Positions 1,088-58,123 of a stretch of 61,660 nt of DNA are shown one piece after another (position 1 is the first letter of the stretch; every line of letters starts with the position of its first letter). The notes below the pieces were generated by a model. That model ran no database searches, was not told the DNA's origin, and was given only the letters and a program-made list of their open reading frames with translations. The position numbers and the translations under genes were made by a program. The DNA comes from Richelia intracellularis (GTDB taxonomy: Bacteria > Cyanobacteriota > Cyanobacteriia > Cyanobacteriales > Nostocaceae). Location: NCBI GenBank assembly GCA_000613065.1, contig CBZS010000673.1, positions 1-61,660 on the forward strand, written 5' to 3'.

Positions 1088-1194
1088 CAATATTGGGCTT
1101 TGCATAAGTGCGGGATGATTTCACTAAATTTTCAACGATTTCTCAATGCTTTCAAACCCTAATTCATCCCGCACTTATGCAAAGCCCAATATTG
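1088..1194. mobile_element. MITE copy 1 (91 bp, 1096-1186) with 8-bp duplication CAATATTG
   Basis: The element at 1096-1186 begins GGCTTTGC and ends GCAAAGCC. CAATATTG stands directly on both sides (1088-1095 and 1187-1194), a perfect 8-bp target duplication. Both arms carry the same change relative to the family ends (GGCGTTGC to GGCTTTGC), and both arms are of the ATAAGTGCGGGATGA type, so this copy has a perfect 23-bp inverted repeat. Confidence 0.85.
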
Positions 1195-4452: not shown

Positions 4453-4559
4453 GATTCTTGGGCGTTGCTGAATCAGGGGATGATTTCACTAAATTTTCAA
4501 CGATTTCTCAATGATTTCAAACCCTAATTCATCCCGCACTTATCCAACGCCGATTCTTG
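4453..4559 (+). mobile_element. MITE copy 2 (4461-4551) with 8-bp duplication GATTCTTG
   Basis: The 91-bp element starts GGCGTTGCTGAATCAGGGGA and ends CCAACGCC. GATTCTTG is directly repeated at 4453-4460 and 4552-4559, a perfect 8-bp target duplication. It lies between a hypothetical gene and the 3' end of aroE, where no gene is disrupted. Confidence 0.88.
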
Positions 4560-8033: not shown

Positions 8034-8140
8034 CACTTTATGGCGTTGCATAAGTGCGGGATGAATTAGCCTTTGAAACCATTGAGAAATCGTTGAAAAT
8101 TTAGTGAAATCATCCCCTGATTCAGCAACGCCCACTTTAT
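8034..8140 (-). mobile_element. MITE copy 3 (8042-8132) with 8-bp duplication CACTTTAT
   Basis: The 91-bp element is in reverse orientation relative to copy 2. CACTTTAT is directly repeated at 8034-8041 and 8133-8140. A short minus-strand reading frame across it (7935-8174) is only the MITE's open frame plus flanks, not a gene. Confidence 0.88.
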
Positions 8141-8295: not shown

Positions 8296-9219
8296 ATGTC
8301 ATTAAACGCAATCTCTGCTATAAACCCCATTGCTGGTGAATATTGGCAATGGCAAGGTCATAACATTTACTATGTCAAAGCTGGAGAAGCTCAACTCCAA
8401 CGTCCACCCTTACTATTAGTCCATGGCTTTGGAGCATCTACAGACCACTGGCGTAAGAATATTAGCGGATTGTGTGACGAATTTGAAGTGTGGGCGATCG
8501 ACTTGTTAGGATTTGGGCGATCGGCTAAACCAAAACTACAGTACAGTGGTAATCTGTGGCGAGATCAACTCCGGGACTTTATTGCAGATGTAATTGGTCA
8601 AAAAGCTGTACTAGCAGGTAATTCCCTGGGTGGTTATGCTAGCCTGTGTGTTGCGGCTCAATCTCCTGATGTGGCAGCGGGTTTGGTATTATTCAACAGT
8701 GCGGGTCCTTTTAGCGATAATCAAACAACTTCTAATACAGAATCAAAGCAAAAACCCAAGTCAGTGACAAAATTATTCGGTAACACTCTGCGGTGGGCTT
8801 TTCGTCAAAGATTATCTCAATTTCTCCTCTTCCAATACATTCGTCAACCTTGGGTAATTCGTCGCACCTTGAAAAAAGTGTATGTTGACCACAGTGCAAT
8901 TACTGACCAGTTGGTGGCAGATATTCGTCGTCCTTCTGGAGACAAAGGTGCGTTTGATGTATTTTGCTCAGTGTTTAGTACTCCCCAAGGAGAAAATAAC
9001 GATGCATTACTTAAACAATTAATGTGTCCCCTACTACTATTGTGGGGAGAAGGAGATCCATGGATGAATACCAGGGAGCGATCGCAAAAATTCCGTCAAT
9101 ATTATCCTGAACTAACAGAGCATTTTTTACAAGCGGGTCATTGTCCCCATGATGAGGTTCCCCATCAAGTGAATCCATTAGTCAAAGATTGGATTTTGGC
9201 AAATAATTTGGTTGTTTAA
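8296..9219 (+). CDS. Alpha/beta-fold hydrolase
   Basis: The 307-residue protein has the complete catalytic triad of the alpha/beta hydrolase fold: nucleophile Ser in GNSLGG (S110), Asp in WGEGDPW (about D254) and His in AGHCPHDE (about H282). The oxyanion-side motif is LVHGFG (residues 42-47). No signal peptide is visible, so it is probably cytoplasmic. Close relatives in cyanobacteria are annotated only as hydrolases; the substrate cannot be read from sequence. A weak hairpin (CCCCTA/TAGGGG, 9228-9251) follows the stop codon. Confidence 0.88.
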   Translation: MSLNAISAINPIAGEYWQWQGHNIYYVKAGEAQLQRPPLLLVHGFGASTDHWRKNISGLCDEFEVWAIDLLGFGRSAKPKLQYSGNLWRDQLRDFIADVIGQKAVLAGNSLGGYASLCVAAQSPDVAAGLVLFNSAGPFSDNQTTSNTESKQKPKSVTKLFGNTLRWAFRQRLSQFLLFQYIRQPWVIRRTLKKVYVDHSAITDQLVADIRRPSGDKGAFDVFCSVFSTPQGENNDALLKQLMCPLLLLWGEGDPWMNTRERSQKFRQYYPELTEHFLQAGHCPHDEVPHQVNPLVKDWILANNLVV

Positions 9220-9821: not shown

Positions 9822-9912
9822 GGCGTTGCATAAGTGCGAGATGAATTAGCGTTTGAAACCATTGATAAATAGTTGAAAATTTAGTGAAATCATCCCCTGA
9901 TTCAGCAACGCC
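9822..9912 (-). mobile_element. MITE copy 4, no target duplication
   Basis: The 91-bp element lies in reverse orientation with intact ends GGCGTTGC/GCAACGCC. The left flank (TTATATAA) and right flank (AATTTTTC) do not match. It sits at the broken edge of a transposase stub, which suggests that a deletion removed one flank after insertion. Confidence 0.85.
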
Positions 9913-26480: not shown

Positions 26481-26571
26481 GGCGTTGCATAAGTGCGGGA
26501 TGATTTCACTAAATGTTCAACGATTTATCAATGGTTTCAAACGCTAATTCATCCCGCACTTATGCAACGCC
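26481..26571 (+). mobile_element. MITE copy 5, symmetrical arms, no target duplication
   Basis: Both ends read GGCGTTGCATAAGTGCGGGA (right end as complement), giving a perfect 23-bp inverted repeat where most copies have two different arms. The flanks CTATTTTC and GATTAATT do not match. The right flank is the middle of a vWA-type gene whose 5' part is missing. Confidence 0.85.
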
Positions 26572-27539
26572 GATTAATTAAAGAAATTCCGGGTATTAAA
26601 ATCGGTATTATTGCACAGGGTGATTATTGCGAACGCGACACAACTTATATTATCAAAACTCTTGATTTAAGTGATGATGTAGATAAAATTTGTAATTTTG
26701 TGCAAAATGTTGATGCTACCTATGGAAGAGATGCTCCAGAATGTTATGAATTAGTATTGCATGAGGCACAAAGCTTTTTTTGGTCTGATTCTACTACTAC
26801 TAATAAAGCCTTAGTATTAATTGGTGATGATATTCCCGATCCTCCAGCCCAAAATCCCCAAAAATTGAACTGGCGGCAGGAAGTTGATAAATTGGCAGAT
26901 ATGGGGGTAATGGTATATGGAGTACAAGCTCTCAATCGTCCTTATGCTACTCCTTTCTATCAATAATTAGCGAATAAATCCGGTGGATTTAATATTAATC
27001 TAGACCAATTTCCTTATATTACTGACTTGTTTTTAGCAGTTTGCTATCAGCAATCATCCACAGAACAATTACAAGAATACGAACAATAAATTATCGATCA
27101 AGGACGTATGAGTCGGGGATTAAATCGGATATTTAATCCCATGATGCAACGGGAAGGCACAGCATTTTATGAGACTGCTGATTTGCGCGCTGTACCATCA
27201 GGAAGATTTCAAGTGTTAGAAGTTGATAATAATAGTCCCATTAAAAATTTTGTATTAGAAAATGGATTAAAATTTAAAGTGGGACGTGGATTTTATTAAT
27301 TTACGAAAAAAGAAACCATTCAAGGTTATAAAGAAATTATTTTAATGGAAAGATCAACGGGTGATTTCTTCGCAGGGAAAGCTGCAAGAGAAATGTTAGG
27401 ACTTCCGGAAGGTTCAACGGTGCGGATTAAACCCAATAATTCAGAAAAATATGTGGTGTTTGTGCAAAGTACTTCCGCAAATCGTAAATTAATTGGTGGA
27501 ACCCGTTTCCTTTATGAAGTAGAAGATTGGACAAGTTAA
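26572..27539 (+). pseudogene. von Willebrand factor A-like protein, 5'-truncated pseudogene
   Basis: The frame directly after the MITE reads LIKEIPGIKIGIIAQGDYC, TTNKALVLIGDDIPDPPAQN and DKLADMGVMVYGVQALNR, like the second half of a vWA fold. TAA codons interrupt the same frame near 26964, at about 27088 and at 27297. The downstream parts (SRGLNRIFNPMMQREG, EGSTVRIKPNNSEKYVVFVQ, FLYEVEDWTS) belong to the same protein. The start and the metal-binding DxSxS motif are absent. It is clearly dead; similar proteins in other cyanobacteria are unassigned. Confidence 0.75.
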
Positions 27540-33710: not shown

Positions 33711-35494
33711 ATGAAACAACGCCAACCCTATCTCCATTATCTAGTTTTATTGGTAATTATATTTGTGGGACCAATATTACGCTTCAGTAATTTAGGTTTA
33801 AAACCTTTGTGGTTAGATGAAGTAATTACAGCTACTTTTAGCCTCGGTAATAATTACCATAATTATCCCACAGATATAGTGCTATCCCTAGATCAGTTGT
33901 TAGAATTTTTACCTATCAACCGGAGGTGAGTTGTCCCCAAATAGCTGAGAATATTGGCAGTCAGTCTACACATCCACCCTTATTTTTTTGCTGGCTTTAC
34001 CAGTGGTTGGGGTGGATTCATCGGCGTTGCTGAATCAGGGGATGATTTCACTAAATTTTCAACGATTTATCAATGGTTTCAAACGCTAATTGATCCCGCA
34101 GTTATGCAACGCCGATGAATCCTTTGGGAGACAATTGGGTGGCAAAATTGCGAACGCTGCCTGCTGTGCTTGGTATATTAACCATCCCAGTAATGTATGG
34201 AACCAATCGTCTGGCTTTCTCCAGGATTGCGGGGTTAATGGCTGCGGTTGTGATGGCTGTTTCCCCGTTTGCTGTCTATCTTTCCCAAGAAGCTCGCCAC
34301 TACACCTTGCCCATGGTGTTGATTAGTTTATCGCTGTGGATATTATTACAGATACAAAAAGATATTTTTCACAGGAAGAAACTCAATATTGGGGTTTGGT
34401 TGGCGTGGGTAGGTGTGCATACCATCAGCCTCTATGTACATTATTTTTGCATACTTGCCCTAATCCCCGTAACTGGTACTTTGGTATTGATAATGTGGTG
34501 GTATCGGCAGAAAATTTTCCAGCCAATTCGAGTTTGGTTAGGGTTAATTTTAGCTAATCTTGGGATAGCGATAGCGTTTTTACCTTGATTACTAGTCATA
34601 CTGAGTCATGCTAGTCGTGCGGAAACTCATTGGATTGCCACAGCAAATTACTTTAACCCGTTATCTCAAACAATAATTAGTTGGTTGCTGATGGTGATTG
34701 TCTTACCTCTGGAAAGCCAACCATTACTAGTGACGATGTTATCAGGATTGCTCATGATTGGATTTTGTGTATGGTTTGGCAGACATTTTTTTCAAGGGTT
34801 AAAACATTTATGTCAAAGTAACTCCGATAAATTACCTACAGTTACTCTACTTATATTTGCTGCGGTCATACTATTAGAGTTCTTTTTCATCGTCTATTTT
34901 TTAAACAAAGACATTACTAGTGCCCCACCATATAGTTTTGTATACTACCCAGCTATTTGTGCTTTAATTTGTGCATCTATAAGCAATAATTATAAACTCA
35001 GAGCAAATGTAAAAATAATAGAGATAATATTACTATTCAGTTATATTATCTCTATTTTTGTAATTAATAACTTGGGTTTGAAAAAGCCTTTTGAGCCAGA
35101 AAAAGTTGCTCAAATAATGAACCAAGATTCAGAAAAACCATTGATGCTGGTCACAGCATATTCAAATTATTAGGATATCGCATTGGGGTGGAGTTTTGCC
35201 TTAGCATTAAAAAAGATTAGGGAGAATAATGACCAACCATCTTACTTTGGGTTCTACAAAAAATATCCAGACTGGCTAGCTATTTGGCAAAAACTGTCTC
35301 AAATTGAATCAAAAAACCTCTCTCAACTAAATCTATGGGTAATTGGTCCTGGAATCATACGCCAACAATGTCCCCTAAAAGCACAGGTGTCTCCAGCCTT
35401 AGCTTGTGATATCGATCCTACACAACACTACCGCATCGGTATTTCTTATCAGTTATATAGATGTGCTAAAAGGGAAAACCATGCTCGAGCTTAA
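33711..35494 (+). pseudogene. GT39-like membrane glycosyltransferase pseudogene, interrupted by a MITE
   Basis: The N-terminus has the first membrane helix (YLVLLVIIFVGPILRF) and LGLKPLWLDEVITA, the catalytic Asp loop of ArnT/PMT-type transferases. A frameshift near 33905 leads to STHPPLFFCWLYQWLGWIH. A MITE is inserted at 34023-34113, after which PLGDNWVAKLRTLPAVLG continues in frame with the text before the element. Later membrane helices follow (SPFAVYLSQEARHYTLPMVL). In-frame stops stand at 34586-34588 (FLP, stop, LLVILSHASRAETHW) and 35171-35173. It presumably once used a polyprenyl-phosphate sugar. Four independent lesions show it is dead. Confidence 0.82.
34015..34121 (+). mobile_element. 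MITE copy 6 (34023-34113), imperfect 8-bp duplication
   Basis: The flanks are GATTCATC (34015-34022) and GATGAATC (34114-34121), equal at six of eight positions. Removing element plus one flank gives TGG ATT CAT CCT TTG GGA, which restores WIHPLG in the glycosyltransferase frame. The element reads TGA in the gene frame, so this insertion truncated the protein. Confidence 0.85.
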
Positions 35495-57560: not shown

Positions 57561-57667
57561 GAATTTAGGGCGTTGCATAAGTGCGGGATGAATTAGCGTT
57601 TTAAACCATTGACAAATCGTTGAAAATTTAGTGAAATCATCCCCTGATTCAGCAACGCCGAATTTAG
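57561..57667 (-). mobile_element. MITE copy 7 (57569-57659) with 8-bp duplication GAATTTAG
   Basis: The reverse-oriented 91-bp element has GAATTTAG on both sides (57561-57568 and 57660-57667). It lies downstream of rpsF. Confidence 0.88.
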
Positions 57668-58032: not shown

Positions 58033-58123
58033 GGCGTTCCTGAATCAGGGGATAATTTCACTAAATTTTCAACGATTTGTCAATGGTTTAAAACGCTAAT
58101 TCATCCCGCACTTATGCAACGCC
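58033..58123 (+). mobile_element. MITE copy 8, on a deletion within ISKra4
   Basis: Left end GGCGTTCC (one change), right end GCAACGCC. The flanks AGGAACAG and GAAAAAAT are unequal. Compared with ISKra4 at 17.8 kb, the bases corresponding to 18554-18813 are missing at this point. Confidence 0.85.

Follow-up and report, generated by a model that had tools for sequence, protein, structure and literature searches.

The window, the whole stretch of 61,660 nucleotides of Richelia intracellularis DNA that was analysed, holds eight copies of a 91-bp MITE. Copy 3, at 8042-8132 on the minus strand, is enclosed by a perfect 8-bp duplication (CACTTTAT on both sides), resulting in a net gain of 99 bp or 33 codons and bearing out the arithmetic of the preliminary description of this DNA. 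It sits 163 bp upstream of an alpha/beta-hydrolase ORF at 8296 whose nearest named relatives belong to Calothrix (86-89% identity, including C. rhizosoleniae SC01), followed by other cyanobacteria with 62-71% identity (16 loci in the scan). The ends of the element are imperfect terminal inverted repeats starting GGCGTTGC, and the RNA fold of copy 3 (-27 kcal/mol, z -3.5) is a hairpin formed by the strand. Terminal inverted repeats, a target duplication, short length, lack of a transposase and many copies together identify the element as a MITE; an Rfam scan of the window found nothing. The arms are of two types, A starting GGCGTTGCTGAATCAGGGGATGA and B starting GGCGTTGCATAAGTGCGGGATGA. The copies and duplications are listed below.

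1096..1186, plus strand: MITE copy 1; arms B/B; frame closed by TAA; 8-bp duplication CAATATTG
4461..4551, plus strand: MITE copy 2; 8-bp duplication GATTCTTG; TGA closes the frame
8034..8041, no strand: target-site duplication CACTTTAT, one side of copy 3
8042..8132, minus strand: MITE copy 3; arms A/B; 30 open codons in the first frame; intergenic
8133..8140, no strand: target-site duplication CACTTTAT, other side of copy 3
9822..9912, minus strand: MITE copy 4; open frame; flanks differ at 6 of 8 bases, no duplication
26481..26571, plus strand: MITE copy 5; arms B/B; frame closed by TAA; flanks differ at 6 of 8 bases, no duplication
34023..34113, plus strand: MITE copy 6; own frame open; flanks differ at 2 of 8 bases
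57569..57659, minus strand: MITE copy 7; 8-bp duplication CTAAATTC; open frame
58033..58123, plus strand: MITE copy 8; open frame; flanks differ at 5 of 8 bases, no duplication

When the element is read as copies 2 and 6 are oriented, its first frame is open from end to end (GVAESGDDFTKFSTISQWFQRLIHPALMQR), its second stays open over 21 codons, and stops interrupt the remaining four, just as had been described. Copies 2 and 6 had both been named to illustrate the open frame, which is correct for copy 6, whereas copy 2 itself carries a TGA. In the window the first frame is open in five of the eight copies and closed in copy 2 (TGA) and in copies 1 and 5 (TAA), the latter two because both of their arms are of the GCATAAG type. 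None of the eight copies was seen in an intact gene, in agreement with the preliminary description. Copy 1 has as its host an ORF remnant that is repeated in the Richelia genome and has no Pfam match, and copy 6 breaks a PMT_2-like gene remnant, having inserted in another phase. An ORF at 26493-26966 starts within copy 5 and weakly resembles VWA_2 (E 0.0094, rejoined version). Copies 7 and 8 (57569-57659 and 58033-58123) lie in opposite orientation with 373 bp between them, amid remnants repeated elsewhere in the window, and the pair could fold or move as one unit.

Copies in the genome and the family, and probable kinship with IS1

The genome containing the window comprises 5.49 Mb in 857 contigs. 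Our main census collected full-length copies and their flanks from 881 kb, mostly contigs picked for good matches. A near-systematic sample consisted of 40 further contigs (188 kb) taken at near-regular steps of contig number, a few steps being shifted by hand so that it is not strictly random; it contained 22 MITE copies (3 partial), which corresponds by extrapolation to about 640 per genome. The length was 91 bp in 184 of 188 full copies, and 106 of the 188 had an 8-bp duplication that was either perfect or contained a single mismatch. Exact duplications of 6-10 bp were found in 83 of 184 copies, and among these 78 had 8 bp, two 9 bp, one 7 bp and two 6 bp. The earlier statement that an insertion never shifts the host frame holds for duplications of 8 bp and fails for the other lengths. 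An exact 6-10 bp duplication is absent from 101 of the 184 copies, and its absence from over half of the copies suggests decay or recombination between copies in the Richelia genome.

Pairing of the arms was scored in 169 copies, resulting in 138 A/B, 15 B/B, 13 A/A and 3 unclear cases. The 15 B/B copies all carry a stop in the first frame. Both the B/B and the A/A copies look as if one arm had converted the other. The 1593 bp at G000:C767:22105-23697 (locus L094), which contain aminotransferase-like fragments (named by eye), are bounded by two type-A MITE ends that face each other and show no matching duplication.

Among 184 genomes of the same family, 94 contain related elements and represent 39 of 56 genera, and no related element was found in the one same-genus genome in the searches, which is 88% complete. 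The length of 91 bp is common across the family: a sample of 29 copies from 29 relatives, one per relative and picked by DNA rather than by protein, contained 26 copies of exactly this size.

The Richelia genome also contains five elements about 750 bp long (L014, L015, L081, L084 and L095), each with one end that differs from arm B at 2-3 of 23 bases, and an ORF of the one element tested contains an IS1 transposase domain (DDE_Tnp_IS1, PF03400, E 2.1e-20). On account of these matching ends and of the transposase domain in one element, the MITE is best read as an IS1-family derivative. Two of the five elements are flanked by an 8-bp repeat with one mismatch and three have no clear 8-bp duplication. 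IS1 normally uses one frameshift; the transposase of all five copies is split over several frames, and no intact IS1 able to move the MITE today was identified.

Inserts in predicted proteins

The preliminary description had proposed a search of predicted proteins for the MITE translation as an in-frame insert, and this search was successful for one protein of the Richelia genome, on contig C395, and for four proteins of relatives. In the Richelia genome the protein search scored 150 of 643 first-look candidate copies, and the longest open frames were examined. Among the 150 scored copies one lies in an open frame of 937 codons (C395:7686-7775). The corresponding protein has 928 residues without internal stops, and the MITE provides 30 of them (aa 51-80), placed between a signal-peptide-like start (by eye) and a 3-keto-disaccharide-hydrolase-like part, which is followed by a sortilin/BNR region. 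Two orthologs, found among 118 genomes searched, are 81% identical over aa 81-908 and have the same C-terminus without the insert; the linker preceding the insert differs from the orthologs as well, so that the alignment gap exceeds 33 residues. Comparison with the orthologs gave a dN/dS of 0.19, a value that may mostly reflect the time before the insertion. The MITE in C395 differs from the consensus at 4 of 91 sites, and three of the four differences occur in some other copies.

For the relatives, long open frames were fetched after family-wide protein searches and compared with their homologs, and four inserts were found among the matches listed. In a NACHT protein of 1110 aa (G112:C294) the MITE forms aa 679-708, with 33 extra residues starting at aa 679, and all nine aligned homologs (8 genomes) show a gap of 32-33 columns in place of the insert. 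A DUF4178 protein of 245 aa (G041:C24) contains the MITE at aa 92-121; 19 other genomes match it in two pieces flanking the insert, and the 11 of these 19 that were aligned all lack it, leaving a clean gap of 33 columns. In an HNH_5 protein of 555 aa (G173:C1) the insert, aa 194-223, is read in the second frame and has a perfect duplication, and the sole other matching genome lacks it. The insert of an FGE-sulfatase protein of 319 aa (G167:C19) covers aa 248-277. Residues 49-246 and 279-318 of this protein match PDB entry 5hha, the chain of which is unbroken, the second piece being a weak match (1.6 bits); its target duplication is not recognisable, making the evidence weaker than in the other cases. 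The four inserts of the relatives differ from the consensus at 10-16 of 91 sites. Moreover, a 272-aa ORF in G212:C119, with the MITE in the second frame and a perfect duplication, is probably a further in-frame insert.

Under neutral evolution of the host genes after the insertion, 5.3 internal stops would be expected for C395, 28.0 for G112, 4.6 for G041, 8.1 for G173 and 6.0 for G167, the dating assuming a consensus-like copy at insertion, and 0 were observed in each, although these five ORFs were picked as long and open so that openness is no test in itself. At least five predicted proteins, otherwise normal, now contain the MITE as an insert of 33 residues. Since five insert-bearing proteins were found, one in the Richelia genome and four in relatives, the earlier view that the in-frame property is only potential was too cautious: it is realised in full-length reading frames.

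Most long open frames around MITE copies are not internal inserts. In G068:C50, G214:C57, G215:C1 and the Richelia contigs C355 and C135 the MITE lies upstream of the likely start codon, as judged by eye. Two of these, G214:C57 and G215:C1 (L235 and L236), share one and the same MITE, in frame within the leader of a gene that resembles aromatic amino acid ammonia-lyases (by eye), indicating that the insertion predates the split of G214 and G215. Stops within the MITE removed G072, G010 and G014, and a TAG within the MITE closes the frame in G212:C54 (NRPS by eye). In G212:C41 (L234) a 9-bp duplication puts the 3' part of the gene out of frame, which serves as a natural control for the rule of 99 bp. 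Among the Richelia contigs, C82 has no recognisable gene, and C829, with an NAD(P)H-hydrate-dehydratase-like downstream half (by eye), has no duplication, making a rearrangement more likely; the insert in C32 is in frame, but in a transposase-like fragment (by eye), and was not counted as intact.

Openness of the frame and phases of landing

Dinucleotide shuffling of the consensus (5000 shuffles) yielded at least one fully open frame of six in 89% of the cases, and when the arms were kept and only the middle was shuffled the value was 79%. Having one fully open frame of six is no more than chance. The first frame was open in 128 of 169 copies of the census, which is biased, and in 133 of 184 copies of a larger set that overstates openness, as protein matches guided the choice of many of its contigs. 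Of the 27 copies of 91 bp in the window and the near-systematic contigs, which form the less biased set, 12 had the first frame open.

The preliminary description had asked if the open frame is conserved beyond what DNA identity requires. The 138 A/B copies contain 129 distinct substitutions, 10 of which create stops compared to 8.7 expected when the same base changes are placed at random sites; with all occurrences taken together there were 32 stop-making changes versus 24.8 expected, and synonymous changes numbered 31 versus 26.1. In the relatives' sample the first frame was open in 17 and the second in 18 of the 26 copies of 91 bp, with 8 distinct stop-making changes versus 7.2 expected and 14 synonymous changes versus 15.1. 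New stops are depleted neither in this genome (10 versus 8.7) nor in the relatives (8 versus 7.2), answering the question in the negative. Stops are nevertheless far fewer in the open frame than in the other five, contrary to the equal frequency that had been named as the observation that would speak against an in-frame insert, and this is due to ancestry and not to purging of new stops. The stop and synonymous tests on the 138 A/B copies and the relatives gave no sign of purifying selection on the MITE peptide. The peptide is recognisable across copies, with stops and amino-acid changes arising at the neutral rate, and the readable frame looks like a lucky by-product that is not kept by selection.

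The phases in which the element lands were determined by rebuilding the empty sites of the 106 copies with duplications, using a threshold of at least 100 aa for ORFs. An ORF is crossed by 32 of the 106 copies, giving 33 crossings, and many of the ORFs in this count may not be genes. With the MITE on the same strand phases 0, 1 and 2 were hit 6, 1 and 8 times, and on the opposite strand 4, 5 and 9 times. All six classes of orientation and phase were hit, the open class (same strand, phase 0) accounting for 6 of 33 crossings, which is near one sixth; there is no clear preference for the open phase. Three of the six open-class copies are open themselves, and one, C395, lies in a full-length gene. 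The remaining crossings break the ORF, lie near its end or cross doubtful ORFs (by eye).

Origin of the inserts and comparison with known elements

We regard it as very probable that the inserts derive from a MITE with IS1 ends that moved by ordinary transposition with an 8-bp duplication, and that the in-frame survivors were kept by selection on the host gene. The non-autonomous MITE was probably moved in trans by an IS1 transposase. An insertion would add 99 bp and thereby keep the host frame, and landing in one orientation and phase of six would provide the gene with a 33-residue peptide, about 30 residues coming from the element and the rest from the duplication. Bad landings would break the gene, and in-frame landings at tolerant sites would persist under continuing selection on the host gene. 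The failed cases fit the same model, as insertion would be blind to frame and the survivors would be what host-gene selection leaves. The insert-bearing proteins are presumably translated and functional.

The open frame might instead be a true coding feature, in which case the element would spread as a palindrome that codes for protein, and selection would maintain its peptide as open and foldable. The frequency of open copies (128 of 169 in the biased census, 12 of 27 in the less biased set and 17 of 26 in the relatives) and the commonness of the 91-bp length (26 of 29 copies) would suit such an element, but nonsense changes occur at the neutral rate both here and in the relatives, and synonymous changes are near expectation. 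Moreover, the second frame is equally open in the relatives and is also used, namely in the HNH protein, the 15 B/B copies are numerous even though each contains a stop, and the openness expected by chance is high. The neutral stop rates bring this explanation close to refutation, and we consider it very unlikely. It is likewise improbable, with a chance that we put very low, that the host genes of the inserts are already decaying and merely have yet to acquire stops after an in-frame insertion. The Richelia genome is rich in gene remnants and repeats and the MITE in C395 is only 4 of 91 sites off consensus, both of which favour this reading; yet the inserts of the relatives, at 10-16 of 91 sites off consensus, have 0 stops versus 4.6-28 expected, and C395 matches its orthologs to the last residues with a dN/dS of 0.19, a ratio that may mostly predate the insertion. 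Translation of the MITE frame as a free-standing small peptide is hardly credible, since the existing open stretch of 30 codons has no start codon near its beginning, the surrounding open frame varies between copies, there is no Pfam match and no coding selection is seen. We thus retain ordinary transposition followed by selection on the host gene as the origin of the inserts.

In-frame selfish DNA in working proteins is best known from Rickettsia. In the Rickettsia palindromic elements (RPE) and their Wolbachia relatives a short palindromic repeat with an open frame is described inside otherwise normal, unrelated proteins, and a guanylate kinase carrying such an insert is active (PMC2229807, PMC10969869). 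For RPE in Rickettsia 19 intragenic cases are given, with the target duplication marked by a question mark in the table (PMC2229807), and RPE are described as encoding a conserved peptide (PMC10969869). The resemblance to these elements that the preliminary description had pointed out is fair in outcome, as a palindromic repeat occurs as an in-frame insert inside full-length proteins, five of them here. The present element differs in that its parent family (IS1) and an 8-bp duplication are visible and the phase of insertion is mixed, in that intact insertions are rare, with one among the longest open frames of the 150 scored Richelia copies, and in that stops and amino-acid changes are neutral, so that it does not encode a conserved peptide in the RPE sense. 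We conclude that ordinary transposition, together with purifying selection on the host gene, has produced an RPE-like outcome.

Other MITE-like repeats with open frames, namely ERIC/RU-1, YPAL/RU-2 and the 107-bp Correia element, are described as fused in frame to genes, which the review reads as random insertion (PMC2229807). By description these differ from the present element in their hosts, and here several inserts are internal, comprise 33 residues and have insert-free homologs. Closer by host are the small repeats of filamentous cyanobacteria, compared here by description only: in Anabaena sp. 90, 15 of 147 MITEs lie in disrupted ORFs, and intragenic ones are described as making pseudogenes (PMC3542288), unlike the inserts reported here, and ORFs are mentioned for MITEb and MITEe of Anabaena PCC 7120 (PMC10969869). 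QMITE1 of Coxiella is a further element for comparison (PMC5896051). In the open-access literature on MITEs, palindromic elements and in-frame inserts we found no description of a MITE insert in an intact cyanobacterial protein, and we do not claim priority. With insert-free homologs, a likely parent family and a duplication of known length, the cyanobacterial case makes it testable if such peptides are selected or tolerated; our data favour tolerance.

Selection might also act between lineages rather than within them, in that MITE lineages of this cyanobacterial family whose length plus duplication is divisible by three and that retain one or two open frames outlast others through being less often lethal on landing in genes, an idea that we consider unlikely. 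If it were true, the 91-bp element would be a long-running generator of 33-residue inserts, and some inserts, such as the one between the NACHT and HEAT parts of the STAND protein, may be co-opted. For annotators the insert can be recognised by the signature GVAES[GW]DDF..F.T..QWFQ..IHPA[LF]MQR or ALLN[HQ]GMIS..., which should not be taken for a domain.
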